A stretch of DNA of 64,000 nt from assembly GCF_013032445.1 (NCBI RefSeq), contig NZ_WQCA01000012.1, positions 62,001-126,000 of the forward strand, in the 5' to 3' direction. The notes under the pieces were generated by a model that saw nothing but the letters and a program-made list of their open reading frames with translations, had not been told where the DNA came from and did no database searches. Both the position numbers and the translations under genes were made by a program. The stretch's first letter is position 1. Every line of letters begins with the position of its first letter. Shown here piece by piece: positions 1,357-14,419 of the stretch. This stretch comes from Ruegeria arenilitoris (GTDB lineage Bacteria > Pseudomonadota > Alphaproteobacteria > Rhodobacterales > Rhodobacteraceae).

Positions 1357-2436
1357 ATGTCGAACCATCAATTTGATGCCTTGATTGAAGAAACACAGGC
1401 AAAAGTGCAGGCAAGCCAGTCGCAGATCGAAAACCTGACCTCGCGGATTGACGCGGCACGGGCCAAGATCGGCACGGCCGAGGCGGATATCGACATCGAA
1501 AATGCCACGCTTGAGGACGTGCACGCCCATACCGAGGTGATGAACGCCAACATCGCCGAGCTGATCATGGGGCTGGACGATGTCACCAACGCGTTTTCCA
1601 AGGATTTCGACGAGATGCGCTCGAAAACCGGGTGGGAGTCGTTTGTTGGCATCTTCTCACGCCGGAAATCGGAATCGATGCGGCAGGAGCGGATGCGCAC
1701 CGCCAATATCGACGACAAGCTGCAGGACCTGATCGCCAAATCCGACGTGATTGTGAAACTGCTGCAAGGGCAGCTGTCCGTGTTGGAAGAACAGCGCGTC
1801 AAGGTCGAGGACAACCTGACCGGCACTCTGGACGACCGCGAGGCCACCGTGGCCGAGCTGGAATCGCTGCGCGCCGAAATTCTGGGCATGGACCCGACGA
1901 TAATCACGCTGGAAAACAAGATCAGCGTCGAACAGGACGCCGCCGCGCGGACCCAGTTGGAAACCGAACTGGCTGAGCTGAACAAGCAATATAACGCCAA
2001 GGTTCAGGAAGAGCAGGTCAAGCTGGCTAAAAGCCAGACGCTTGAGCGCTACATTGAAAAGGGCAAAACCTGGGTTGATTCACTACAGAACCAGGCGGCG
2101 ACGCAGATGGTGCTGATCAACAAGCTGCAGACAGACACGCAACAGCGCGTGGTGCTGTATGACGCCCTGACCAAATCGCTGAAAACCGCGCAGCAACAGG
2201 ACGTGGCCCACCGCATCAACGAGATCGGCGTGCAGACCGACCAAGAGGCGCAAACCGCCATGGCCGCCATCGGCACCGCAACCAATCAGAAGATGGCGGA
2301 TATGCTCGAGGCGCATGAGGACCACATGGTCTTTGCCCGCGACGTGCTGGAGAAAAAGGCCAAGGCGGATGAACGTTTTGCCCGCCGGTTTGCCTCGATT
2401 GTCGAGAAGCATGATAAGAACTTGTATGGCGGATGA
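1357..2436 (+). CDS. Long coiled-coil protein, first gene of the AAA+ operon
   Basis: A 359-residue soluble protein, almost entirely predicted alpha-helical coiled coil: heptad-like Leu/Ile spacing, many Glu, Lys, Gln and Asp, few Gly or Pro. There is no signal peptide or membrane segment. A short non-coiled patch near residues 85-110 (GWESFVGIFSRRKSES) separates an N-terminal helical arm from the long C-terminal rod. The helical register of the last ~130 residues recalls TelA/KlaA toxic-anion-resistance proteins, but that is a weak impression. An in-frame GTG exists at 1351; I chose ATG 1357 because AAGGG lies about 9 bases before it. The stop overlaps the next start (ATGA). Its position ahead of an AAA+ ATPase suggests a filament, adaptor or substrate-like partner; this is inference. 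Confidence 0.75.
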   Translation: MSNHQFDALIEETQAKVQASQSQIENLTSRIDAARAKIGTAEADIDIENATLEDVHAHTEVMNANIAELIMGLDDVTNAFSKDFDEMRSKTGWESFVGIFSRRKSESMRQERMRTANIDDKLQDLIAKSDVIVKLLQGQLSVLEEQRVKVEDNLTGTLDDREATVAELESLRAEILGMDPTIITLENKISVEQDAAARTQLETELAELNKQYNAKVQEEQVKLAKSQTLERYIEKGKTWVDSLQNQAATQMVLINKLQTDTQQRVVLYDALTKSLKTAQQQDVAHRINEIGVQTDQEAQTAMAAIGTATNQKMADMLEAHEDHMVFARDVLEKKAKADERFARRFASIVEKHDKNLYGG

Positions 2437-2714
2437 AGTGGTTTAGCCGAAAAGACGTAAGGCTGCTAAGGATTGGCTTCTTTCTCGTAGTTTGGCCGAT
2501 CCCGATTTATGTCCTAACTGCTCTTTTACACGAATTGGATGTTGCAGGCGGAGCTTACAAACTGCTCGGTTTTCTCACTCTTTACGTCGGGCCGGGCAGT
2601 ATGATTTTTGGGCTTATCATTTTCGCATTGTACTTGATCTCAGAAGTTTTTCTCCTGCCTTGGCGGCTCAACCAATTCTGTGGAAACCGTGATAGAAGAT
2701 CCACTAATGACTGA
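2433..2714 (+). CDS. Small two-segment membrane protein of the AAA+ operon
   Basis: A 93-residue protein with two hydrophobic stretches, near residues 14-32 (VVWPIPIYVLTALL region) and 43-75 (TLYVGPGSMIFGLIIFALYL region), followed by a basic tail. No family recognised. It starts in an ATGA overlap with the coiled-coil gene and runs 8 bases into the next gene, so translation is probably coupled. Base composition is visibly more A+T rich than its neighbours, with codons such as TTA, CTA and ATA that are scarce around it. It may be a late insertion into the operon or simply a membrane gene with relaxed codon use. Confidence 0.6.
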   Translation: MKWFSRKDVRLLRIGFFLVVWPIPIYVLTALLHELDVAGGAYKLLGFLTLYVGPGSMIFGLIIFALYLISEVFLLPWRLNQFCGNRDRRSTND

Positions 2715-3825
2715 TCCCACCCAAGACCATGTCGGCCTGACCGACACCTTCGCCTCGCGCCGCTATTTCCGCAAATTTGAGGTGATCACGGTCCACCTCC
2801 TGCGCGTGGCCGCGACGATGGAGGCGGAGGGCGCGATCAGCAAGCAAGAGGTGCGGATCGTGTCGCGCTACCTCTCGGGGCTGCTTTACACGTTCCGGGC
2901 GCTCAGCATGAAGTACCTGCTGGTCGGGCGCGATACGGGTCGGTTCTTTGGCAGCCTCGCCATGGACAAGCGCGACAGTGGGTTTCCTGTAGCGGCCGAA
3001 TTGCTGACCATGGCCAACGATGCGCAGCAGGCGCAGGTGCATCTGGCGAATATGCCCTCGGAAGACGATCTGAAAACCGACATGGTGCGGACCATCATTG
3101 GCGACCGTGACATCCCCACCAAACTGCAATTCGCGCTGTCCCAAAGGCTCTATTACGAGGAATTGCTGAAAGGACAGCTTTTCTGGGCTCGCAACGATCC
3201 CGAATGCCATTGGATCGGGAACGATGGCGAGCGGCGCAAATTCCTGATCCATTGGGCGGTGTATGACAGCCAGGTCAACTTGCCCGTGATTTATCTGATG
3301 CAGCTTGAGGACAGCGGCAAAACTGCGTTGCCCAAGGATCAGCGCCGCTGGCCTGAGGTGCAGGCGCATCTGATGGCGCAAGCGCTGGGCGGGTTGAAGC
3401 TGGTGACCATCGCCAAAGGCTTCGATCAGGATTTCGACGACCTGCACCCCAAACACCTGCGCCGCATCCATGTGGGGCCGATGTATTCCTCGGCCTATAC
3501 GGAGCAATCCGGCCCTTTGCGGCAGGTGCTGGAAGATGCGCAGGCGCCCGAGGGGCAGGACTGGGCGCTGGCCTGGACCACCGAGGAGCTGGAAAGCGAA
3601 GAGGTGATCGAAGAGCGCGCCGGGTGGTTCTCGACTGTCGAGCGCGAGGTCTTTGCGTTGGACCCGTTCGGTGGGCAGGGGGCCGAAACCGGTGCCACTC
3701 GCACCCAACGGTCGATCATCCTGCCGCAGCGCCCGTTTCAGGTGCTGGCCGAACGCAACCCGCCGGGCTTTGCGGATGTACGCAAGTTCGTGGTCAGCAA
3801 GTCCGGGCAGGTGTTGAGGTATTGA
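2707..3825 (+). CDS. Conserved protein of unknown function in the AAA+ operon
   Basis: A 372-residue, apparently cytoplasmic protein without recognisable catalytic motif, signal peptide or membrane segment. The N-terminal ~150 residues are helical with alternating charges. A Trp/Tyr-rich middle (FWARNDPECHWIGNDGERRK near 162-181) and an acidic stretch (TTEELESEEVIEERAG near 298-313) follow, and the tail ends in basic residues. I do not recognise the family. ATG 2707 overlaps the previous stop; an upstream in-frame GTG at 2680 would lie inside the preceding gene without a ribosome site. A Rhodobacterales intergenic repeat separates it from the ATPase gene, the only real gap in the operon. Confidence 0.7.
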   Translation: MTDPTQDHVGLTDTFASRRYFRKFEVITVHLLRVAATMEAEGAISKQEVRIVSRYLSGLLYTFRALSMKYLLVGRDTGRFFGSLAMDKRDSGFPVAAELLTMANDAQQAQVHLANMPSEDDLKTDMVRTIIGDRDIPTKLQFALSQRLYYEELLKGQLFWARNDPECHWIGNDGERRKFLIHWAVYDSQVNLPVIYLMQLEDSGKTALPKDQRRWPEVQAHLMAQALGGLKLVTIAKGFDQDFDDLHPKHLRRIHVGPMYSSAYTEQSGPLRQVLEDAQAPEGQDWALAWTTEELESEEVIEERAGWFSTVEREVFALDPFGGQGAETGATRTQRSIILPQRPFQVLAERNPPGFADVRKFVVSKSGQVLRY

Positions 3826-3841
3826 GGTTTTCGCCTTCCCT

Positions 3842-3900
3842 AACGGCCCCTTTCAGGGCCTGTCGGGCCATGAGACGAGAGTATTTTTGAAAAGATGAAG
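3842..3900 (+). repeat. Rhodobacterales intergenic repeat, degenerate copy
   Basis: A GGCCC/GGGCC hairpin (3845-3849 with 3856-3860) is followed by a tail, roughly 3877-3900, running GAGAGTATTTTTG then AAAAGATGAAG. A second, fuller copy lies at 56032-56097 with the tail GAGGATATTTTGGACAGATGAAG in the same order. Hairpin plus AGATGAAG tails are familiar between genes in roseobacter genomes; mobility or function is unknown to me. Here it sits inside an operon, where it could act in transcript processing or partial termination. Confidence 0.6.
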
Positions 3901-3917
3901 CAAGGGCGGTTGTTCAG

Positions 3918-5849
3918 ATGAGTTTGACGTCAGATCAGATGGAATTGCGCGAGGCGGATATTCGCAAACATTATCCGGCAGCGACTGCTTTGCTGAACGG
4001 GTTCGAACACGCGCCGCGGATTGCCAAACCCGTTGAGGCTACGGTCGAACGATCTCCGGGCGTGTCGACGGGGCGGCGGTTTCGGTCGACCACACCGGGG
4101 CTGGTAACGCGGCGTACCACACGGGCCGACGGGGTGCATCTGGTCGAACGGATTGAGGCGTCGGATGATGGGGATGCGTTGGTTTCTCCGCCGCAAGCCA
4201 CGACGCAGCAAGCGATACGCCGCGCCATTGCCATCGCTTTGTCTGTAGCGGAAGCCTATGCAGAGCAAACCCCTTTGGCCGATCTGAAACGTGCGAATTT
4301 GGCCGGAGACTTGCCGGCTGCTCGTAAGACCGAGTTCTCAGAGCTGCTGACCGTCGAAGCGCTCATTACACTCCACACCTTCGGCAATGCTCTGGCTTAT
4401 CTGTTGTCTTCACATCTGGGCGAAACCACGGTTGATCTGGGCGAAATCGAGGAGGTTCTGACCGACAATGGCCAACTCGCTCTGCATGGCGCTTTGTGGG
4501 AGCTGGACCAGACGCTGGCCAAACACGCCCCCGACGACGCCCACCTGATCGCGGCCACCAGCGCTTATGCCGAGCAGTTGATGGACAAGGCCGCCCTGCG
4601 CGCGCAGTCTGCGGGTCATCTGGCCCCGTTCCAGAACGCCGCCTGGCATATCGAGGCCGATGACCTGACGATCCGGGGATTCGAACCGGCATCGAAGGCG
4701 AAATCCACCACGCTGACCATGACATTCAAGAAACCGAACGAGGTGGTGGGCAACCATATCGCCAAGTATCAGGCGATGAAGCTGGCCAAAATGCTGATGG
4801 CCTATGATTTCGACCGCCGCCTGAACCCGTTTGCGGAACTCGGGGGGTTCATCTTCACCTTCATGGGCGACGGCAAACCGGGCACCGGCAAGACCACCCT
4901 GATCCAGATGATGGCCGGGCTGATCAACGACTATTGCCAGAACGCAGGCTATCCGTTCCGCTATCAGAACCTGAGTACCGACAACATCGACAGTTATCAG
5001 GGCAAATCCGGTCAGAACGCCAAGGCGTTTATCAATACGATCATCGACCCCTCGGTCATCGGCTTCGGCACCATCGACGACATTGACCAGCTTGCGGGCA
5101 AACGCGGCGACCGGCAGTCGTCAGCCGGGCAACTGGAAATCACCGCCGTTCTGATGGAGAGCTTTGCGGGCGCCAACACCGTCGTGCGCGGCAACTGCAC
5201 CTTTGGCATGTTCTCGAACTACCCCGAGAATGTGGACGACGCCCTGCGCCAACGGGCTGGGGCGCGGTTTCTGGTGGACGGGCCGCAGACGCGCGAGGAT
5301 TACATCGACATTCTGCACCTGCTGATGGGCCGCAACCACGACATCCCGTTGGGCGAGCACGACGCCTATGCCGCGCAGGAAATCAAAAAGGCCGTCGCCG
5401 CCAGTTTCGAAAGCCACTCCCGCCCGCATGAGGATGCCTTGCTGCAGGTCTATGACCGGGTCTCCGGCGATATCGGCCAGATGGACACAATCGCCAAACT
5501 GGGCACCTACCTCAAGGCGATCCAGCAGGCGGATGAGCGGTTTACAGGCCGCGCGATCAAGAACATCACCGACGCGGTCAAGGTCCGCGCGATGGATTTC
5601 GAACTGCCTGACGAGTGGATGGAAAACCCCGACCTGTTCCTGTTTCGCGACTACGACACCAAGAAGGCTATGATCGAGGATCTGCGCCAGCCGATCACTG
5701 TCGAGATGGTGATGCAAGAGATCAACCGCTACGCCGACAGCGAGTTCCGCTATGCCGACAAGAGCGACGAGGTCGCCATCGAAAACGCGGTGCGTGAGAT
5801 GGGCCGGATGGAAGAGGCCAAGCGGCGGTTTAGAAAGGAACTGGAATGA
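3918..5849 (+). CDS. AAA+ family ATPase
   Basis: A 643-residue cytoplasmic ATPase with an unrecognised N-terminal region of about 300 residues and a C-terminal AAA+ module. Walker A is MGDGKPGTGKTT near 314-325 and Walker B is GFGTIDDIDQ near 377-387. A sensor-1-like Asn is in MFSNYPENV near 431-437, and the following DDALRQRAGARF resembles the classical AAA second-region arginines. The Asp-Asp Walker B is the less common form of Asp-Glu, so hydrolysis should be tested rather than assumed. The residues after Walker A (YQNLSTDNIDSYQGKSGQN) look like pore-loop material. ATG 3918 follows AAGGGCGG. The stop overlaps the next start (ATGA). It is the likely engine of the operon, remodelling one of the co-encoded proteins; the substrate is unknown. 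Confidence 0.85.
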   Translation: MSLTSDQMELREADIRKHYPAATALLNGFEHAPRIAKPVEATVERSPGVSTGRRFRSTTPGLVTRRTTRADGVHLVERIEASDDGDALVSPPQATTQQAIRRAIAIALSVAEAYAEQTPLADLKRANLAGDLPAARKTEFSELLTVEALITLHTFGNALAYLLSSHLGETTVDLGEIEEVLTDNGQLALHGALWELDQTLAKHAPDDAHLIAATSAYAEQLMDKAALRAQSAGHLAPFQNAAWHIEADDLTIRGFEPASKAKSTTLTMTFKKPNEVVGNHIAKYQAMKLAKMLMAYDFDRRLNPFAELGGFIFTFMGDGKPGTGKTTLIQMMAGLINDYCQNAGYPFRYQNLSTDNIDSYQGKSGQNAKAFINTIIDPSVIGFGTIDDIDQLAGKRGDRQSSAGQLEITAVLMESFAGANTVVRGNCTFGMFSNYPENVDDALRQRAGARFLVDGPQTREDYIDILHLLMGRNHDIPLGEHDAYAAQEIKKAVAASFESHSRPHEDALLQVYDRVSGDIGQMDTIAKLGTYLKAIQQADERFTGRAIKNITDAVKVRAMDFELPDEWMENPDLFLFRDYDTKKAMIEDLRQPITVEMVMQEINRYADSEFRYADKSDEVAIENAVREMGRMEEAKRRFRKELE

Positions 5850-6301
5850 ATGATGTTCTACCTCTCATTGCGTATTACTCTTTGAGTGTCGCGATTTCGG
5901 CGCTTGTGGGGTGGTACGCAGGAAAAATGCGCTTGAAGAGAGACGAACACGCCGGCATGGGAGCGGTACTCGTAAGTTTGTTACTTGTATTCATTGTAGT
6001 GCCAATTGGACCTGCGATTCTTTCATCAATACTATCGGATGGGTTCGGTGACGTTCTGGGTTTTCTGAAATTTTGGGGATGGCTTCTTCTTCTTTCCTCT
6101 GTTTCCGACAAAGGGAGTGAATACTTTTTTCTCCTCTTAGTTTCGTGTGTTGCGGTCTGCTTGCTGAACCACGCTTTAGGGCGTCGCGCGGCGGCTGACG
6201 GCATTGCTTCGATGCAAGAAACTCAAAGCCGAATAAACTCTCAAAAGAGCCGTATGGGAGAAGCGCTTACACGCCATTCATCAAGGGATGGGCTGAAATG
6301 A
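5846..6301 (+). CDS. Small polytopic membrane protein of the AAA+ operon
   Basis: A 151-residue protein with about four hydrophobic segments, near residues 5-24, 40-62, 72-86 and 92-110, and a soluble C-terminal tail of ~40 residues rich in Arg, Ser and Gln. No family recognised. It is tied to both neighbours by ATGA overlaps, so it is co-translated with the ATPase and the DUF6638-like protein. A+T content is clearly higher than in either neighbour, as in the 93-residue membrane gene at 2433, hinting at later acquisition. A role as membrane anchor for the ATPase complex is speculation based only on position. Confidence 0.6.
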   Translation: MNDVLPLIAYYSLSVAISALVGWYAGKMRLKRDEHAGMGAVLVSLLLVFIVVPIGPAILSSILSDGFGDVLGFLKFWGWLLLLSSVSDKGSEYFFLLLVSCVAVCLLNHALGRRAAADGIASMQETQSRINSQKSRMGEALTRHSSRDGLK

Positions 6302-7635
6302 TCCGCCTCATCGAAAAAGGCCTGATGTTCGGCAACCTCGTCCACATCTCCAGCCCGGCTCTGGTCGAGCGGTATAACCGCGCATTGCAGCATCTGGCGG
6401 GCAAGACCACGGAACTGACAGATTTCCATGTCGATATCTCGGGTTATTCGCCGGAGGTGGGGATTGAGCTGGAAGACGAGCTCTACCTCAACCCCAACGG
6501 GGTCAACCGGCAGTTCATCCTGCTGACGACCGAGCAGAAACGCGCGCCTCTGCTGAATGTCAAATTTTCGACCTCGCGCGATATCCTGCGCGAATTCATC
6601 GAGATGAACGAGGCGCAGTTGTTCGCCCTGACCGCCACCGATGCGGTGGCCGGAGAGCTGGTGAACTCGGTTTTCAAACTCACCACACCGCGTGACTTGC
6701 TGAACCTGCGCAAGATTGAGATTGAGGCCGACACGGTCGGTGGCACCCTGCGCAAGGCCGAGCAACTGGCGGGCATGGTCGAACGGTTCAAAACCGAAGA
6801 GGACGCCTGGTTCGATGATGTGCTGATCGCAAAGATGATCGAAACCGCCAAGGAAACCGGCGACGTCACCCGCAACCCCGTCCACCTTCGCCACACCGCG
6901 TTTGAACAGCGCAACTTCTGGACGGCGCATTTCGGCGGGCTCTATCTGTTTCCCGATCTGGACTATCCGGCGGCGATTTGCATGGGCGAACTGCCTGATG
7001 ACATGCCGATCAAGCATGTTTTCGATCCTTCGCAAAAGCACCGGATTGCGGCCTTCCTGAACGACAATAATCTGGTAGAGACGATCATCGAGGCGCGTGG
7101 GGTGAACTCCACCGCTGTTCTGCAGCAAAAGATGGATTTTCTGACCGTCCACGCCGCCGCCGACGCAGGAGTTGACCTGACCGGGCTGGACCGTAGCGAC
7201 ATGCGCCGCCTGGCGCGAAACCACGCGGATCGCCTGCCCGAGGCGTTTCACGGCCTCGCCCAATTGCTGCGCTGGGCCAGCGATGGTGGGCCGTGGCCGC
7301 GCATCACCTCGGACCATCCGGCCTATTTCTATACGCTGCGGGCGTCTGATACACCCAACCGCGATCTGGTCAATATGCTGCTGGCGGAACTGGCACCGCT
7401 GGACCCACGTCAGATGTTCATCTGCCATAAGGAATTGTTCTACAGCACCTATTCCACCTGGCCCGAGACCAAGAAAGCCTATGTTGCCGACTTCCTCGCG
7501 CGCGAGTATCAGGTGGACAAGGCCGGTGCCCGCGCCGCGCTGTTCGGCCATGAACCGGACATGAGCGGTAATGACCGGGTCAGCGATGACATCATCGCAC
7601 GCGTTGGCCCGTGGGGCGCCGTTGGGAGAGGATAA
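6298..7635 (+). CDS. DUF6638-like conserved protein of the AAA+ operon
   Basis: A 445-residue, apparently soluble protein. The sequence reminds me of the Rhodobacterales family annotated as DUF6638, an attribution made from memory and not verified. No catalytic motif is evident. The N-terminal half has mixed strand/helix character. The middle holds an aromatic patch (HFGGLYLFPDLDYPA near 216-230). The C-terminus carries a short His/Tyr/Phe-rich segment (MFICHKELFYSTYSTWPE near 373-390). It starts in an ATGA overlap and ends immediately before the next ATG (TAA-ATG), so it is tightly coupled on both sides. Its repeated position beside the AAA+ gene suggests it is a partner or client; this is inference. 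Confidence 0.7.
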   Translation: MIRLIEKGLMFGNLVHISSPALVERYNRALQHLAGKTTELTDFHVDISGYSPEVGIELEDELYLNPNGVNRQFILLTTEQKRAPLLNVKFSTSRDILREFIEMNEAQLFALTATDAVAGELVNSVFKLTTPRDLLNLRKIEIEADTVGGTLRKAEQLAGMVERFKTEEDAWFDDVLIAKMIETAKETGDVTRNPVHLRHTAFEQRNFWTAHFGGLYLFPDLDYPAAICMGELPDDMPIKHVFDPSQKHRIAAFLNDNNLVETIIEARGVNSTAVLQQKMDFLTVHAAADAGVDLTGLDRSDMRRLARNHADRLPEAFHGLAQLLRWASDGGPWPRITSDHPAYFYTLRASDTPNRDLVNMLLAELAPLDPRQMFICHKELFYSTYSTWPETKKAYVADFLAREYQVDKAGARAALFGHEPDMSGNDRVSDDIIARVGPWGAVGRG

Positions 7636-7902
7636 ATGTTTGTCGCGCTAAGGTTTTTGATTCCACTGCTGATTTTCCTGACGATCCTCTATGTCGGCGT
7701 ATCGCTCTATTCCCGCTGGGTGCGACGCGGTAAACTGATCGCACATTGGGAGAAAAAGGGACTGACCGGCGATCGGGATGCTTTTGTTCGGCGCGGGTTG
7801 GAAAAATATGACGGATCATTTCGCCGCAAACTGATCCTGGGGATTTACGTGGTGCCGCTGGGACTAATCGCGATCCTGATTTACGTTTCGAATTTCATGT
7901 GA
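7636..7902 (+). CDS. Small membrane protein of the AAA+ operon
   Basis: An 88-residue protein with one hydrophobic helix at the N-terminus (near residues 4-24) and another at the C-terminus (near 65-85). A basic, soluble middle (RWVRRGKLIAHWEKKGL) lies between them. This is a two-pass inner-membrane layout. The family is not recognised, though the length and layout recall small Rhodobacterales cation-transporter-like hypothetical proteins. It starts directly after the stop of the preceding gene and overlaps the region of the next start. Confidence 0.65.
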   Translation: MFVALRFLIPLLIFLTILYVGVSLYSRWVRRGKLIAHWEKKGLTGDRDAFVRRGLEKYDGSFRRKLILGIYVVPLGLIAILIYVSNFM

Positions 7903-7913
7903 GGGTTTCGTCA

Positions 7914-8558
7914 ATGCGTTACATCAAATGGGCCATCATCATCCTGTTCTGGGGGACGATTGCAGTGGTGCTGAACTATACCCTGCCGCAGCATGACGTG
8001 GTGCGAATCTCGGATACCTATGAAAAACGGATCGATCCGGGTGAGAACAGTATCTTTTGGTCAGTGCAGGACGTTGGCAGCGACGCGACCACTCCGAATC
8101 GGGACGTGTTCTTCATCCAGACGCGCAAGACGAACGGCAAGGTCATGGTCTACCGGAACGAAGACACCGGCTGGGGCTGGCCGCCCTATTTCAAGCTGAA
8201 TTCCTCGAACCTGCAGGCTGAGGCCGCGGACCTTAAATCAACCACCGAAAGCCCGCGATGGGTCGTCGTGCGCCACTATGGCTGGCGTAGCGAATTCCTG
8301 TCGATCTTTCCAAACGCTGTGAAAATCTGGCAGGTCGACGATCCGGACATCCGGATCATACCGTGGTTCAACATTATTTTCCTGACCGTCTTCTTTGCAC
8401 TGATCTGGGCCATCTGGGTACGCTGGCGCCGGTTCCGCGAGGCGCGCGTCGATCCGATGCTCGAGAATGTGGAAGACGGTCTTTACGCCGCTGGCGATGC
8501 AATCGAAGAAAAAAGCAGCCGGTTCAAGCAATGGCTGAACAGTTGGAAGTCCAAATGA
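7914..8558 (+). CDS. DUF1523 family membrane protein
   Basis: A 214-residue protein matching my recollection of DUF1523, a family seen mainly in alphaproteobacteria and lacking an assigned function. An N-terminal membrane helix (residues 4-22) is followed by a periplasmic strand-rich domain with GWGWPPYFKLN near 84-94. A second membrane helix lies at about 150-168, and a basic cytoplasmic tail ends the protein. ATG 7914 is preceded by GAGGG eight bases away; a GTG at 7899 is also in frame but overlaps the previous stop without a site. It is the last gene of the operon, facing flgI tail to tail. Confidence 0.75.
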   Translation: MRYIKWAIIILFWGTIAVVLNYTLPQHDVVRISDTYEKRIDPGENSIFWSVQDVGSDATTPNRDVFFIQTRKTNGKVMVYRNEDTGWGWPPYFKLNSSNLQAEAADLKSTTESPRWVVVRHYGWRSEFLSIFPNAVKIWQVDDPDIRIIPWFNIIFLTVFFALIWAIWVRWRRFREARVDPMLENVEDGLYAAGDAIEEKSSRFKQWLNSWKSK

Positions 8559-8603: not shown

Positions 8604-9698
8604 CTATCGCACGACGAATTCCGCGTGCAGTGCCCCGGCCGCTTTGATCGTTTTCAGAATGTCGATCATATCGCGAGGCGACACGCCAAGCGCGTTTAGC
8701 CCCGCCACAACCTCGGAAAGGGTGGCTGCCTCGGGGATTTCCGCCAGTCCGGTACCTTCCTCTTCTTCGATGCCAGCGAAGGTGCGGGGGACGACAACAG
8801 TCTCGCCGCGCGCAAACGGGTTTGGCTGGACTGCGATTGGCGATTCCTCGACCGTCAGGGTCAGGTTGCCTTGGGATACAGCAACGCGCGAAATTCGAAC
8901 CTCTTGCCCCATGACGATGGTGCCTGAACGTTGATCGACGACCACGCGGGCCTTGGTTTCCGGCTCGACCAGAATATTCTCGATCCGGCCCAGCGCGTGC
9001 GCCGTCGAAGTTGCCTGCGTCGCGGCGATGTTAAGCTCAACCGTCCCGGAATCCCGCATGATTGCCACTGCCCGATTGAATTCAGAGTTAATCGCAACCT
9101 CAATGCGGCTGGCGGTGGTGAAATCGGGCTCGCGCAGGGCCAACCGCATTTGTGTCAGTGTCGAGAGGTCGAAATCGATCTCACGCTCCACCCGCGCGCC
9201 CGATGGGATCACGCCCGAGGTCGGAACCCCCTGTACGACCGAAGCAGCCTCGCCCTCGGCCACGGCGCCACCAGCCAGAACCGTGCCCTGCGCCACCGCA
9301 TAAATTTGCCCGTCTGCCGCATTCAGCGGTGTCATGATCAGGGTGCCACCCAGAAGGCTTTTTGAATCACCGATCGCCGATACCGTGGCGTCGATCTGTC
9401 CGCCGACCCGGGCAAAAGGCGGCAGGCTGGCGGTCACCAACACGGCCGCCACGTTCTTGGGGCGAAAATCCTCTCCGTTCACGTTGACGCCCAGCCGCTC
9501 GAGGATGTTGGACATGATCTCTTCGGTGAAGGGCGAATTGCGCAGCCCGTCACCAGTGCCGTTAAGCCCGACAACCAGGCCATAACCCACCAGATCATTG
9601 CCCCGCACCCCGTCGAAATCCACAAGGTCCTTCAGGCGGATCGCACCGGCTGAGACGATCCCGGGCAGCAGCATCAATAGGAAAAGAAGAAGTTTCAT
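8604..9698 (-). CDS. flgI: Flagellar P-ring protein FlgI
   Basis: Forms the periplasmic P ring, the bushing of the flagellar rod in the peptidoglycan layer. It is 364 residues, the usual length, with a Sec signal peptide at residues 1-18 (cleavage after VSA). Family signatures are IRLKDLVDFDGVRGNDLVGYG near the mature N-terminus, the VTASLPPFARVGGQIDATVSA block, and a C-terminal ALGVSPRDMIDILKTIKAAGALHAE. Last gene of flgE-flgK-flgL-flgI; its ATG overlaps the flgL stop (ATGA). No flgJ-type rod cap follows. Confidence 0.96.
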   Translation of the reverse strand: MKLLLFLLMLLPGIVSAGAIRLKDLVDFDGVRGNDLVGYGLVVGLNGTGDGLRNSPFTEEIMSNILERLGVNVNGEDFRPKNVAAVLVTASLPPFARVGGQIDATVSAIGDSKSLLGGTLIMTPLNAADGQIYAVAQGTVLAGGAVAEGEAASVVQGVPTSGVIPSGARVEREIDFDLSTLTQMRLALREPDFTTASRIEVAINSEFNRAVAIMRDSGTVELNIAATQATSTAHALGRIENILVEPETKARVVVDQRSGTIVMGQEVRISRVAVSQGNLTLTVEESPIAVQPNPFARGETVVVPRTFAGIEEEEGTGLAEIPEAATLSEVVAGLNALGVSPRDMIDILKTIKAAGALHAEFVVR

Positions 9699-10705
9699 CT
9701 CAGGAAATTCACCAGCGACAGGTTCGCGTTGCGAACGGTGACGGAATACAGGCTTTCCAACTGGAACTGCACGGTTTGCAATTGCGCGGCGGTTTCATAT
9801 GGGTCCGCTGCAATCAGTTTATTCCGGCTGTATTCCAGGCTGGTCTGCGCCGCACTGTTGCGCGTGGCGGCCTGTTCGATCCGCGCCTCGGCCGACCCCA
9901 CCTGCGCGCGCAGGTTGACGATATCATTCTGGGTATTGGCCAGATCGACGCCCAGTTGCGTGAACAACGCCGTGCGTTGGTCACGCGGCAGGTTGAGCCT
10001 GTCATCCGACACCAGCGCCGCAACGGCAATATCCCGCAGCGCATCCTTGATCGCGGGGTCAGTCGCAGTGATCGGAATACGAACACTTTCATTCTCGGAG
10101 ATCTGCATAGCGGCCAAGGCGGTGTCCGATCCCTGATAGATCACCGTGTCAAACCCGGCGGGATCGTTGAACCAATCCTCTGCCGCCTGCCGGATATCCG
10201 ACACTGTGGGGTGCCCTGTCAGTTCAGCCTCCAGCGCAGTCAGCAGCATGTCGGTTGAGGGCAGGGGAGAAACATCCGTGGCCACGCCGGAATACAGGCT
10301 GCGCCCGCCGGCCCGTGTATTCAGCGCAGACATGATCGTGTCTAACTCGTTGCGCGCCTGCACGGACGCGTTTTCGTGGCTGACCGCCTGGTTCGATGTG
10401 CCAAAAGACAGCAGGGACGCGGTGAATTCGCTGACCGAGTCATCAACTGTCGTCAGGCTCAACTGCATGGCGTCCGTGAACAACCCGGCCTCGGCCGTGG
10501 ACACCCGATAGGCATCCAGCCGTGACAGGCTGCGGTCCAGATCCAGCAAGTGCGAGTAATCGCCATCCAGTCGCCCGGACACATTCTGAACCTTGCCGGT
10601 GGACATCTCGTGCGACAGGGTCTCGATCTGGGTTTTCAACTCGGTCGAGCGGGTCTTCAATGTCATGCCCCGCGCCAGATCACCGATAGACGTCAAATTA
10701 ATCAT
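9695..10705 (-). CDS. flgL: Flagellar hook-associated protein 3 (hook-filament junction)
   Basis: Joins hook and filament outside the cell; secreted by the flagellar type III apparatus. It is 336 residues with flagellin-like helical N- and C-terminal domains. The N-terminus has LARGMTLKTRSTELKTQI and the C-terminus SLYSVTVRNANLSLVNFL, as in other alphaproteobacterial FlgL. The start ATG 10705 shares bases with the flgK stop (TGATG); a GTG three bases further upstream is also open but is less likely. Confidence 0.93.
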   Translation of the reverse strand: MINLTSIGDLARGMTLKTRSTELKTQIETLSHEMSTGKVQNVSGRLDGDYSHLLDLDRSLSRLDAYRVSTAEAGLFTDAMQLSLTTVDDSVSEFTASLLSFGTSNQAVSHENASVQARNELDTIMSALNTRAGGRSLYSGVATDVSPLPSTDMLLTALEAELTGHPTVSDIRQAAEDWFNDPAGFDTVIYQGSDTALAAMQISENESVRIPITATDPAIKDALRDIAVAALVSDDRLNLPRDQRTALFTQLGVDLANTQNDIVNLRAQVGSAEARIEQAATRNSAAQTSLEYSRNKLIAADPYETAAQLQTVQFQLESLYSVTVRNANLSLVNFLR

Positions 10706-12156
10706 CACAACCTCAACAGAGTATTCATCAATTCATCCACCACCGAGATGACCCGGGCATTAGCGGCATAGGCTTGTTCGATCTGCATCAGGCGCTGCAG
10801 TTCCTGATCCGTATCGACGCCGTCTTCGGCCTCGATCCGGGCCATTTCCAGCTGGGCGCCGTTGGCGAAGGTCAGGCGCTGGCTGGCCGTGTGGGCCTTG
10901 GCGCCAGCTTTGGACGAAAGCGCCTCGGTCATATCCGAGGCGCGCATGGCACCGGTGCCAAAGGGTGACCCTGCAACCGGACGCGCATCGCTGAGAATGG
11001 CACCAAGGGCCTGCAGCTGTGTTGCACCACCCGGATCGCCGGGGACTGCTGCGCCCAGTCCGTCACGCAGCCGCCAGCTGTCGCCGCCATTGTCGGGATC
11101 GACAATCGTGTTCAGACTAATGCGCGAGGCCAGCCCCGCCGGAGCCGTCACATCGAACCGGTTACCGGCGTCGGTGAACAGGCCCGTATCGGTGGGCAGC
11201 GCGGAGGGGTCCAGACCGGGGGTTTCGAACCGTTCGATCAGGTCCCGGGCGACCGAGTCCAGATTGGCCTGTGCTTCAACCGCCAGCTCATCGCGGATCT
11301 GGAACTGCGCCATCAACGCGCCGCCGCGAATCTGAGCGGTGCCTCCACCGGTGCGCACCGGATTGCCGTTCATCTCCAACCCCGACAGCAGGCCGTTGCC
11401 GACCGTCATATGGGGTTTGGTGTCTCCGGTGGTTGTAAAGGAAAACTGCGTCGCTGTGCCTTCCAGCAGGATCAGGCCGCCGTCGGAAAACAGCGACACC
11501 TGATTGTTCGCCCGTGGCACCGCGTTGACCGGCACCAATTCGTTGACCTGATCAATCAGCACCTGCCGCTGGTCCAGCATGGCCCCGATGTCACCGCCCG
11601 AATGTTTGACCGACGGAATTCTGGCGTTCAGCTTCTCGATATCCTTGAGGGTCTGGTTCAGGCTGTCCACCTGTTTGCCAATGGTGCGGTCCGCGTCCGA
11701 GCGCAGCTGCCGCACGCCTTCGGAGGCGGAATTGATCCTGTTGGCCAGATCGCGCCCAGTGCGGGCGACCTGATCCAGCCGCTCAGACGAGTCGGGCAGG
11801 CTGGCTGCCGTGATCAGGCTACTGTCGAAATCGGCCAGCCGGGCGGCCAGCGATGACAGATCGTCAGCCTTACCTATAAAACCCTCAACCCCGGCGTGAA
11901 AGCTGGATACGGCGGTTTGATACGCCAGATCTGCGTCGGTGACGCGGCGATTGGCGGTCAGGACCGGATCCTGGTTGCGCACCACGCCGACGGTTCGCAC
12001 CCCATGGCCCGAGATTGTGTTCGTCGTCAGTTCCAGCGACCGTCGGGCAAAGCCGGGGGTCAGCGCGTTGGCAATATTGTCCGACACAACTGACGTGCCC
12101 CGGCCCGCGGCCGTCAAACCGCTTACTGCGTTGTTGAATGCCGTCGTCATATTCAT
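10705..12156 (-). CDS. flgK: Flagellar hook-associated protein 1
   Basis: First hook-filament junction protein, exported through the flagellar type III system. It is 483 residues. The N-terminus carries the rod/hook-family motif FNNAVSGLTAAGRGTSVVSDNIANA, and the C-terminal helix includes QRLMQIEQAYAANARVISVVDELMNTLL. The central region is variable as expected. ATG 12156 is preceded by AAGGGGGG. It lies 33 bases after flgE and overlaps flgL, so the three are one transcript. Confidence 0.94.
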   Translation of the reverse strand: MNMTTAFNNAVSGLTAAGRGTSVVSDNIANALTPGFARRSLELTTNTISGHGVRTVGVVRNQDPVLTANRRVTDADLAYQTAVSSFHAGVEGFIGKADDLSSLAARLADFDSSLITAASLPDSSERLDQVARTGRDLANRINSASEGVRQLRSDADRTIGKQVDSLNQTLKDIEKLNARIPSVKHSGGDIGAMLDQRQVLIDQVNELVPVNAVPRANNQVSLFSDGGLILLEGTATQFSFTTTGDTKPHMTVGNGLLSGLEMNGNPVRTGGGTAQIRGGALMAQFQIRDELAVEAQANLDSVARDLIERFETPGLDPSALPTDTGLFTDAGNRFDVTAPAGLASRISLNTIVDPDNGGDSWRLRDGLGAAVPGDPGGATQLQALGAILSDARPVAGSPFGTGAMRASDMTEALSSKAGAKAHTASQRLTFANGAQLEMARIEAEDGVDTDQELQRLMQIEQAYAANARVISVVDELMNTLLRL

Positions 12157-12189: not shown

Positions 12190-13485
12190 TCAGCGTTTGA
12201 TGTTGGTGGTTTCCTGCAGCATCTCGTCAACGGTCTGGATCACTGTGGCGCTCGAGGAATAGGCACGTTGGGTTTGAATCAGCGAGGTCAGCTCGGTGGC
12301 AATGTCGGTGGTCGATTCCTCGCGCGCGAAGGAGACAAGGTCTCCGGTCGGCCCTTCGCCTGCATTCCACAGGAAGAAGGTGCCGCTTTCGCGGGACGGC
12401 GCATAGGTCTGGCTGTCCAGCGCGTTCAACCCGTTGGGATTGGGCACATCCGCCAAAGGGATCTGAAACATGCGGCGGCTGATACCGGTATCATAAAACG
12501 CATAAACATAGCCGTTCTCATCGACCTGAACGCTGGTCATAGTACCCACGGCCGAGCCGTCGCGCGTGATCGAAACCGGCGCGAAGGTGTCGGACAGCTG
12601 CGTGATGCCGTCCGCGTCGCCGATCTGGCCGATATTGACCTCCATCGGGCCACCGGCGACGTTCACCACAAGGCTGCCGGTGGTCGGATCGTAGGCCCCT
12701 CCGGATACGGTTGTGACAGTTGCCAGCGTGCCGCCAGCGGTCCGGCTGTCGGTGAAGGTCAGGGTATATTCCCCGATCACCGCCCCGCCCGAGGCCGAAT
12801 CGCGCAGGATCATTGTCCATTCATTGCTGCTGCCGACGGCAGGCACGGTTGGTACCAGCTCGATGTCGACGCTTTCGGATTTGCCCAGGTTGTCGAAATA
12901 CTCAACAGACAGAGGCTGGGTGTCGCCCGGCGCGCCAGCATCGGTCGCCGTGGCTGGCAGGTTCATGCGCAGGTTCATTGCCGTGGTCGGCGCGCCGGAC
13001 AGTTGATTGACGCTCAGTTGGATGGGTTCCAGCGCTGCTGGGGTGTCCCGCGGCACTGCCGGAATCGACCCGTCAGGATTTGCACGCCAGCCCAACAGGA
13101 CAAGGCCGGATTCGGTGACCAGATACCCTTCTTCATTGGTGCGGAACGATCCGGTTGTGGTCAGCTGCATCTCGTTCGATCCGCCCGCGATTTGCGAGCT
13201 TGGGCGCACCGGCAACATGCCCCGGCCCCGCACGGCCAGATCGGTCGAGTTGTTGGTGGTCACCAGCGATCCGCGTTGGTCGATCAGCCGCTGACTGGTG
13301 GTTCTGACCCCGCCCGCCGAATAACTGCCGCCCTGGCCCGACGTGACCATCGAATGAAAATCCGTTTCGACCCGCTTGTAGCCGAAGGTCGAAGAGTTCG
13401 CGATATTGTCCGAAATGGTGGCCAGCCGGTTGGCGTTGGCCTTCAATGAGGCCACACCGGCATTCAGCGAGGAGGAAATCGTCAT
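12190..13485 (-). CDS. flgE: Flagellar hook protein FlgE
   Basis: Major subunit of the flagellar hook. It is 431 residues from ATG 13485. The N-terminal signature is SSSLNAGVASLKANANRLATI with DNIANSSTFGYKR, and the C-terminal helix is LTSLIQTQRAYSSSATVIQTVDEML. The frame stays open another 53 codons upstream, but that stretch is compositionally odd and lacks a ribosome site, whereas AAGGGCG precedes ATG 13485. A CtrA-like box lies about 54 bases upstream. It heads flgE-flgK-flgL-flgI, so it is probably a mid-to-late flagellar transcript. Confidence 0.95.
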   Translation of the reverse strand: MTISSSLNAGVASLKANANRLATISDNIANSSTFGYKRVETDFHSMVTSGQGGSYSAGGVRTTSQRLIDQRGSLVTTNNSTDLAVRGRGMLPVRPSSQIAGGSNEMQLTTTGSFRTNEEGYLVTESGLVLLGWRANPDGSIPAVPRDTPAALEPIQLSVNQLSGAPTTAMNLRMNLPATATDAGAPGDTQPLSVEYFDNLGKSESVDIELVPTVPAVGSSNEWTMILRDSASGGAVIGEYTLTFTDSRTAGGTLATVTTVSGGAYDPTTGSLVVNVAGGPMEVNIGQIGDADGITQLSDTFAPVSITRDGSAVGTMTSVQVDENGYVYAFYDTGISRRMFQIPLADVPNPNGLNALDSQTYAPSRESGTFFLWNAGEGPTGDLVSFAREESTTDIATELTSLIQTQRAYSSSATVIQTVDEMLQETTNIKR

Positions 13486-13538
13486 TGGCACGCCCTTCTG
13501 TTGCGTCAATCTTGATGCAACAGCTAACGCACTGCCCC

Positions 13539-13554
13539 TTAACAGCGCGCTAAC
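13539..13554 (-). promoter_or_regulatory. CtrA-type box upstream of flgE
   Basis: TTAA-N7-CTAAC, one mismatch from the alphaproteobacterial CtrA consensus TTAA-N7-TTAAC, 54 bases before the flgE start. The adjacent motB gene has a perfect copy at a similar distance, which strengthens the call. Confidence 0.55.
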
Positions 13555-13582
13555 AGGTAAAATGCCGTCTATCCTGTGATCG

Positions 13583-14419
13583 TCAGGTCTCGCGCAGGAA
13601 AATGATCTCGATTCGGTTGTTACGCACGGCCATCGGGTTTTCATCTGACAATTCCCGGTCGGCGCGACCGGTCACGCGATCCAGTCGCGAAGTCGCAAAC
13701 CCCTTATCTTCAAGCAGTTGCCGCACCACCTGTGCGCGTGAGGTCGAGATATCCCAGGACGGATCACGCGCCAGAACCACCGGCGAGGCGCTGACATGGC
13801 CTTCGACCGCCACGTCATTGGTCACCAGATCCGAAGAACGTGTCACCAGCAGTGCCAGCGCTCGCATCATCGGGGTCGGTTCATCTGTGCCCGATTCGAA
13901 CAGCGGCTGATCCTCGGTATCGAACAACTCGACCACCAGACCCTTGTCGGTGACGCGCGTGACGATGTGTTTTAGCAACTTGTCCGAAACCATGCTTTCC
14001 CCGGTATGCCCCAATAGTTGTGCCTCGAGCGTCGAGAAATCGTCGGACACTTCCTTGCCGCCATCCGGGTTCACCCCGATCGACCCGCGCGCTTGCCGGG
14101 CGACTGTGGGATGCCGTTTGGCCGCCCCCGAGCCATCCATCACCATGGTCTTTTCGGAAAACATGTTGTTGCCGCCAAAAGCGCCGTCACCGCCGCCCGA
14201 GACCGGATTCACCGGAATCGTCGGCGAGAAGTAATCCGCCAGCCCTTTGCGTTGTTTCTCAGTCGTTGCGTTCAGCAGCCACATCAACATGAAGAACGCC
14301 ATCATGGCCGTGACAAAGTCGGCATATGCGACCTTCCACGCGCCACCGTGGTGGCCATCGCCACCTGACACACGTTTCTTCTTGACGATGATTGGCACCG
14401 CATTGGATTGCGCACCCAT
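13583..14419 (-). CDS. motB: Flagellar motor stator protein MotB
   Basis: Stator subunit that couples proton flow to rotation and anchors the stator to peptidoglycan. It is 278 residues. A basic N-terminus leads into one membrane helix carrying the essential Asp in KVAYADFVTAMMAFFMLMW (Asp near 34). A plug/linker region rich in Gly and Pro follows, then a C-terminal OmpA-like domain (DPSWDISTSRAQVVRQLL ... NNRIEIIFL). ATG 14419 has AGGTGG upstream; an in-frame GTG at 14428 is also possible. The usual partner motA is not in the window. A perfect CtrA box lies about 48 bases upstream. Confidence 0.94.
   Translation of the reverse strand: MGAQSNAVPIIVKKKRVSGGDGHHGGAWKVAYADFVTAMMAFFMLMWLLNATTEKQRKGLADYFSPTIPVNPVSGGGDGAFGGNNMFSEKTMVMDGSGAAKRHPTVARQARGSIGVNPDGGKEVSDDFSTLEAQLLGHTGESMVSDKLLKHIVTRVTDKGLVVELFDTEDQPLFESGTDEPTPMMRALALLVTRSSDLVTNDVAVEGHVSASPVVLARDPSWDISTSRAQVVRQLLEDKGFATSRLDRVTGRADRELSDENPMAVRNNRIEIIFLRET

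Follow-up and report, generated by a model that had tools for sequence, protein, structure and literature searches.

Four genes of an eight-gene operon in Ruegeria arenilitoris form a genuine and widely conserved system of proteins to which no function has been assigned. The operon, whose genes we call A to H, lies in a 64,000-nucleotide stretch of DNA (contig NZ_WQCA01000012.1, positions 62,001 to 126,000; hereafter the window) from a genome of 5.24 Mb. Its conserved core consists of A, C, D, and F, which encode a predicted coiled-coil protein (A), a AAA ATPase (D), and two soluble proteins of no recognised fold (C and F), and which constitute a co-inherited unit that tends to be gained and lost together. 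Because this block keeps its order in distant bacteria and comes and goes as a unit, its products probably act as a single molecular machine. By analogy with better-studied AAA systems, we consider the chances evenly balanced that this machine uses ATP to remodel proteins, with D acting on A near the inner membrane and with C and F serving as adaptors.

Co-inheritance was assessed by searching 149 genomes of the window's family separately with a profile for D, the Pfam model for F, and a profile for A. Each of the three was detected in 89 genomes, and the three genome lists are identical. The chance of an exact match between two such sets would be about 1e-42 if the genomes were independent, a figure that kinship makes far too small. 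For this reason, the argument for co-inheritance is carried by the genera that contain both carriers and non-carriers, of which there are at least six (20 of the 60 non-carriers being listed). An earlier, sequence-only reading of this DNA had proposed an uncharacterised operon whose genes belong together, and had named independent scattering among related genomes as the outcome that would speak against it. No such scattering was found, and the operon has instead a strictly co-occurring core. Each carrier holds one cassette copy, which in one genome (G137) is split across two contigs. In another of the 89 (G123; locus L226, 2385–5804), A, C, D, and F remain as fragments only, with internal deletions, and the fragments of D and F are additionally frame-shifted.

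The same unity is evident in gene order. A collection of 134 loci, drawn from the window's family, other families, and 80 named loci, was reduced to 125 by dropping those identical in the last 400 residues of D. All four core genes are present in 118 of these distinct loci, and in every one of the 118 they lie on one strand in the order A-C-D-F. Likewise, in each of 40 loci chosen from the 89 positive family genomes, A, C, D, F, G, and H follow one another in this order on the same strand. Since the four genes keep their order across Alphaproteobacteria and Gammaproteobacteria, the existence of the operon is far beyond chance. Tree distances among the four core genes correlate at 0.95–0.97 over the 118 loci. 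Seven loci lack one or more of the four; three of these (L120, L126, and L134) are incomplete at contig ends and one (L136) at an assembly gap of N, and the remaining three are considered below.

The sequence-only reading described D as a mechanoenzyme, and this description has held. D matches the AAA family (PF00004) at 45.5 bits against a cut-off of 21.2, and a remote homologue does so at 55.1 bits. A Walker A motif (GDGxPGTGKT), an aromatic pore loop (YQGKS), a sensor-1 Asn, and arginine fingers (ALRQR) are present in all 125 D proteins, with the roles of these motifs assigned from general knowledge of AAA proteins. The Walker B motif GFGTIDD is found in 123 of the 125. Many AAA proteins end this motif in DE, and D ends it in DD. 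Ahead of Walker A lies a stretch that we take to be the linker of classical AAA proteins, which it resembles when read by eye. In profile searches of the Protein Data Bank (PDB), the best matches of the window's D are i-AAA, fidgetin-like 1, Vps4, and katanin, and those of the remote homologue, among the best 60 of 142, include AFG2, Cdc48/p97, fidgetin-like 1, Rpt, Pch2, and Vps4.

Structure prediction, for which the alignments of A and D that were folded comprised 18 loci each, extends this picture. A Foldseek search with the whole D model was uninformative, and the predicted C-terminal lid alone (residues ~454–612) gave a usable result. All 50 listed fold matches of the lid are AAA proteins, including FtsH, Rpt, Vps4, Msp1, spastin, and katanin, with Z scores of 6.2–8.1 and root-mean-square deviations of 2.5–7.8 over 63–105 residues. 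The N-terminal part of D is predicted to form a helical domain at residues ~91–229, where the blocks of the model have a predicted local distance difference test (pLDDT) score of 79–95. In 33 of the 118 loci, a crude hydropathy scan of D gives one or two hydrophobic windows, which are perhaps buried helices of this N-terminal domain; the window's D has none. Taken together, these sequence features identify D as a classical-clade AAA ATPase, with no single named subfamily assignable by the tools used.

The partner most readily proposed for D is A. The sequence-only reading had paired the motor with a filament-like protein, and the predicted structure agrees in giving A an elongated, helical form, with helices at residues 3–38, 51–100, 102–115, 118–191, and 195–354. 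No transmembrane window occurs in A in any of the 118 loci. Among 25 family members, A is 70–84% identical to the window's A, and it is most conserved, to the point of being nearly invariant within the family, at residues ~226–298. A second element, at residues ~92–115, consists of the sequence WESFVGIFS followed by a basic run; its general character persists out to Vibrio, and a loose pattern for this aromatic and basic element is found in 116 of the 118 loci. Such an element would suit membrane contact. Median tree distances are 0.50 for A, 0.62 for D, 1.31 for C, and 1.24 for F. The rates of C and F are thus about double the slow rates of A and D, and it is on this basis that A is put forward as D's dedicated partner.

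Searches for relatives of A returned little that is specific. A PDB profile search gave matches only at E > 0.1. Fold matches of the A model include alpha-pore-forming toxins, syntaxins, F-BAR proteins, and axonemal proteins, with Foldseek E values above 0.01 and Z scores up to 15.3, values close to background for long helical proteins, and generic helical proteins dominate among them. Given these background-level scores and the lack of any hydrophobic stretch at a 19-residue threshold, a reading of A as a pore-former was dropped. ESCRT-III chains are absent from the 50 listed fold matches of A, which is not evidence against an ESCRT-III fold. Homology to PspA was likewise set aside, since hhalign gave a probability of 0.3% against 0.3–0.4% for reversed controls. 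Neither PspA_IM30 nor Snf7 is among the family matches of the window's A at E ≤ 10 (in a scan across 18 members of the A family, 25 of the 66 matched families are listed), and the genome carrying the window has no PspA match at E ≤ 0.001. The alignments used for comparison were thin (7 of 8 loci given for TelA and 4 of 12 for PspA), so these comparisons leave room for remote homology of A.

The two remaining core proteins are less readily placed. For C, Pfam offers no relative at E ≤ 1, and the PDB profile matches, all at E > 0.1, include none that is credible. F was assigned by the sequence-only reading to a DUF6638-like family, correctly so, as it matches DUF6638 (PF20343) at 752 bits against a cut-off of 27; its PDB profile matches are again only at E > 0.1. 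Most DUF6638 proteins in the window's family carry a GPWG tail at or near their end, and this tail is absent from the aligned rhizobial-type, Vibrio, Halomonas, and Aestuariispira proteins. By full-text search, no paper in the open-licence literature names DUF6638, and the titles and abstract openings returned by combined-term searches of the same literature hold no description of the cassette. Because this literature is restricted to open licences, the absence of papers is no proof that the system is undescribed.

Membrane genes accompany the core almost everywhere. G is present in 101 of the 118 complete loci, and H, which has a hydrophobic segment near each end, in 106. One or both are found in 107, and in nine of the other 11 loci a gene for a DUF2333 membrane protein lies nearby, placed after F in Sinorhizobium meliloti. 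In all, G, H, or DUF2333 genes stand beside the core in 116 of the 118 loci. No G was found in the loci of the rhizobial type, of Vibrio, of Aestuariispira, or of Stappia. G and H are lineage-specific membrane add-ons that are replaced by DUF2333 in rhizobial-type loci. Membrane proteins, of which the sequence-only reading listed several, do accompany the core in nearly all loci, but the individual proteins vary by lineage and so are not part of it. H belongs to DUF1523 (PF07509; 243 bits against a cut-off of 23) and has no PDB profile match at E ≤ 1. Because the name DUF1523 turns up in further organisms as well, Haemophilus for one, H is probably a borrowed partner.

B and E are still more restricted. 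Among 226 loci, B is found beyond its own genome in two Ruegeria loci only (L160 and L168, at 81% and 63% identity), and E gives one weak, partial match in a congener. Neither is found in any of the 40 family loci, including that of a congener with a D sharing 97% identity with the window's D. B and E are outside the conserved system, and the positions they occupy, between A and C and between D and F, are variable slots that elsewhere hold other small open reading frames (ORFs), many with hydrophobic segments, or little at all. The commonest slot cluster is a three-pass protein of 114 residues in the D-F slot of 24 loci (e.g., L188, 11005–11346), and a protein of 284 residues recurs in the same slot in 10 loci (e.g., L160, 10912–11763); neither has a Pfam match above cut-off. 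On pSymB of Sinorhizobium meliloti (L214, 11106–12851), the D-F interval contains a gene with an endonuclease domain together with an IS4-like transposase (ISRm16).

A mechanism can be proposed that would accommodate these components. D would work as a hexameric ring carrying an aromatic pore loop, and A, an elongated, helical, and presumably self-assembling protein, would be its most likely dedicated client. By pulling on A, D would take A assemblies apart or recycle them, with C and F as adaptors or co-assembly subunits. G, H, and the proteins of the B and E slots, or DUF2333 in rhizobial-type loci, would anchor this cycle at the inner membrane. The overall logic would be like that of ESCRT-III and Vps4, although the polymer shows no detectable homology. 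The purpose suggested by the sequence-only reading, membrane remodelling or envelope stress, is plausible for such a machine by analogy.

Several observations weigh against this proposal. The AAA core of D is poorly modelled (block pLDDT 27–63), the Z scores of about 6–8 obtained for its lid are in the common-background range for the tool, and part of the lid stretch has low pLDDT. The N-terminal domain of D is not recognised as an MIT domain in Pfam at E ≤ 1, where a highly divergent MIT domain is possible. Confidence in the A model is low (pLDDT 69; predicted template-modelling score 0.51), and similar rates of evolution in A and D can arise without contact between the proteins. Among the 77 loci nearest to the window's group, the tree-distance correlation between genes falls to 0.67–0.75, and no pair is prominent. 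Two loci (L182 and L186) hold A, C, and D with F not found within 4.7 and 9 kb downstream, and another (L113, from a metagenome-assembled genome) holds D alone within 19.9 kb. Finally, the Vibrio and Rhizobium leguminosarum loci have no G, H, or DUF2333, and the nearest same-strand neighbours of the Vibrio cassette (L215) look soluble, evidence that does not favour a membrane site for the system in general.

The strongest competing explanation is that D is an unfoldase for quality control or complex assembly, in the manner of Msp1, AFG2, or Cdc48, which would extract or unfold varied clients, with A, C, and F as adaptors that choose these clients and not as the substrate. We regard this as rather unlikely. 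For the lid and AAA core of D, the matches to FtsH, i-AAA, Rpt, Msp1, AFG2, and Cdc48 are no worse than those to Vps4, and three conserved non-ATPase partners exceed the needs of a simple pair of ATPase and substrate. However, no protease domain is recognised in the eight proteins by Pfam or NCBIfam, and the constraint on A equals that on the motor, which suits a dedicated client or structural partner. Compared with AFG2/SPATA5, Cdc48/p97, FtsH/i-AAA, and the proteasomal Rpt proteins, D shares the classical-clade AAA core and lid but differs in its single AAA domain, in its N-terminal domain, and in lacking an associated protease domain that can be recognised.

A more specific form of the proposal that D remodels A would make the cassette an independently evolved machine of the ESCRT-III/Vps4 type, in which a AAA motor builds and dismantles unrelated coiled-coil polymers at the inner membrane with the help of two adaptors of new fold, and which has spread across Proteobacteria by vertical descent and whole-cassette transfer. 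We offer this version tentatively and think it rather less than likely. The resemblance to ESCRT-III/Vps4, or CdvB/CdvC in archaea, lies in an operon where a classical AAA ATPase is encoded alongside an elongated, helical, soluble protein, and the PDB matches of D include Vps4. In contrast, the window's proteins have no match to MIT, to the Vps4_C oligomerisation domain, or to Snf7 in Pfam at E ≤ 1, and the system has two further conserved partners in C and F. The relationship is therefore one of analogy and not of membership.

Systems built on PspA or Vipp1 offer a similar comparison, in that a helical protein is tied to membrane proteins and sometimes to a AAA ATPase (PMC11237479). This survey of phage-shock-protein systems reports AAA ATPases near PspA/Snf7 as well as a Vps4-like ATPase that moved from archaea to bacteria, where it lies beside tetratricopeptide-repeat and six-transmembrane proteins (PMC11237479). 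Neither arrangement, as described there, fits the A-C-D-F cassette. The AAA partner in PspA/Vipp1 systems has two AAA domains according to the same survey (PMC11237479), whereas D has one by Pfam, and A shows no similarity to PspA.

The cassette is distributed unevenly. Profile searches for D were positive in 5 of 289 genomes sampled from the class, of which four belong to the window's family; in 20 of 299 from the phylum, where the window's family accounts for ten and a single further family for eight; and in 2 of 321 from Gammaproteobacteria. These low counts indicate a patchy distribution beyond the window's family. Among the named carriers are Aestuariispira, Stappia, Roseibium, Halomonas, Sinorhizobium, Shinella, Rhizobium, and Vibrio. 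The order to which the Aestuariispira genome belongs rarely carries the cassette, with D detected in 1 of 43 genomes. The complete A-C-D-F set is present in S. meliloti, Shinella, R. leguminosarum, and Vibrio; in Vibrio, where copies were found on megaplasmid records, the core genes of L215 match their profiles at E values of 1e-93 (A), 1e-81 (C), 9e-202 (D), and 4e-78 (F). The remotest carrier, a gammaproteobacterium (G1023), keeps all four at 5e-14, 2e-9, 1e-69, and 5e-49, respectively.

Transfer as a block has probably occurred between classes. In three Halomonas loci (L108, L135, and L137, the first assigned to Halomonas by its near-identity to the other two), the nearest non-Halomonas relatives of each core gene are the same Leisingera-group loci. 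Because this holds for all four genes, the cassette was probably transferred whole into Halomonas.

Such mobility raises the question of whether the cassette serves antiphage or other defence. The presence of both states in at least six genera, with 89 of 149 family genomes positive, would fit this role, as would the whole-block transfer to Halomonas, the megaplasmid records of Vibrio, and the variable ORFs in two slots. Nevertheless, we consider a defence function improbable. Matches of D in PADLOC are weak, the best being TRIP13 at E = 7e-6, and D has no match in a phage collection. No nuclease or effector domain is recognised in the core by Pfam, genomes carry a single copy, and the high identity of A within the family is unlike that of fast-turnover defence genes.

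The least favoured explanation, in which a TelA-like coiled coil would underlie a stress system of the Ter type, as hinted by the sequence-only reading, we judge very improbable: A resembles TelA (PF05816) in solubility, helical character, and approximate length, and its hhalign probability of 0.9% (E 0.06 over 44 columns) is slightly above the 0.2% of reversed controls, but Pfam gives the window's A no match to TelA at E ≤ 1, no homology is detectable, and the genome's true TelA lies on another contig.

The layout of the operon in the window is given in Table 1. Its open frames span positions 1357–8558. The sequence-only reading was right to see one operon on one strand and wrong to count seven genes, as eight are present and eight were itemised in that reading itself. 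It had also described nearly all joins as overlapping or abutting, which is correct for six of the seven: five overlap by 4–8 bases and one abuts, but C and D are spaced by 92 bases.

Table 1. Genes of the operon, with positions in the window
Gene	Position	Strand	Length (aa)	Description
A	1357–2436	+	359	Core; soluble, predicted all-helical coiled-coil protein, slow-evolving
B	2433–2714	+	93	Small two-pass membrane protein, variable A-C slot
C	2707–3825	+	372	Core; soluble, no recognised fold, fast-evolving
D	3918–5849	+	643	Core; classical-clade AAA ATPase by sequence features, AAA domain E=1.3e-11
E	5846–6301	+	151	Small three-pass membrane protein, variable D-F slot
F	6298–7635	+	445	Core; soluble DUF6638 protein, E=2e-226, no recognised fold
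G	7636–7902	+	88	Small two-pass membrane protein
H	7899–8558	+	219	DUF1523 membrane protein, E=1.7e-72

A hydropathy scan of the window's proteins gives two hydrophobic segments each for B, G, and H, three for E, and none for A, C, D, and F. Among the eight proteins, only D, F, and H have Pfam matches above the curated cut-off; the other five (A, B, C, E, and G) exceed no curated cut-off in either Pfam or NCBIfam. Searches of PHROGs returned weak matches at E ≤ 0.01 for D and H only, an Rfam search returned no match, and no E. coli DNA match was found. Promoter and terminator scans of the operon gave sites no more numerous than in shuffled sequence.

No conserved context lies outside the operon across the loci surveyed, and the commonest flanking cluster, an aldehyde-dehydrogenase-like gene as judged by its sequence, occurs in 40 loci. 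In the window, the operon is followed on the minus strand (8604–12156) by genes that look like flgI, flgL, and flgK. A flagellar link was dropped, as flagellar genes adjoin the cassette in only about nine loci and their presence is probably incidental. In one remote gammaproteobacterial locus (L221), a gene for an M50B-like membrane peptidase (13181–13846) lies directly upstream of A, and F is followed by two genes with hydrophobic stretches, as judged by eye.

To our knowledge, few bacterial AAA motors of the Vps4/Cdc48/AFG2 clade have been described that are coupled to a dedicated elongated partner. The A-C-D-F cassette is a probable four-gene machine with no member of established function, carried by more than half of the sampled genomes of the window's family as well as by Sinorhizobium and some Vibrio, and as such it presents a defined and tractable target. 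Its inheritance as a block means that the cassette can be deleted cleanly, and the catalytic residues of D can be read from its sequence. If it is true that D processes assemblies of A, then AAA-driven recycling of polymers would have arisen more than once.

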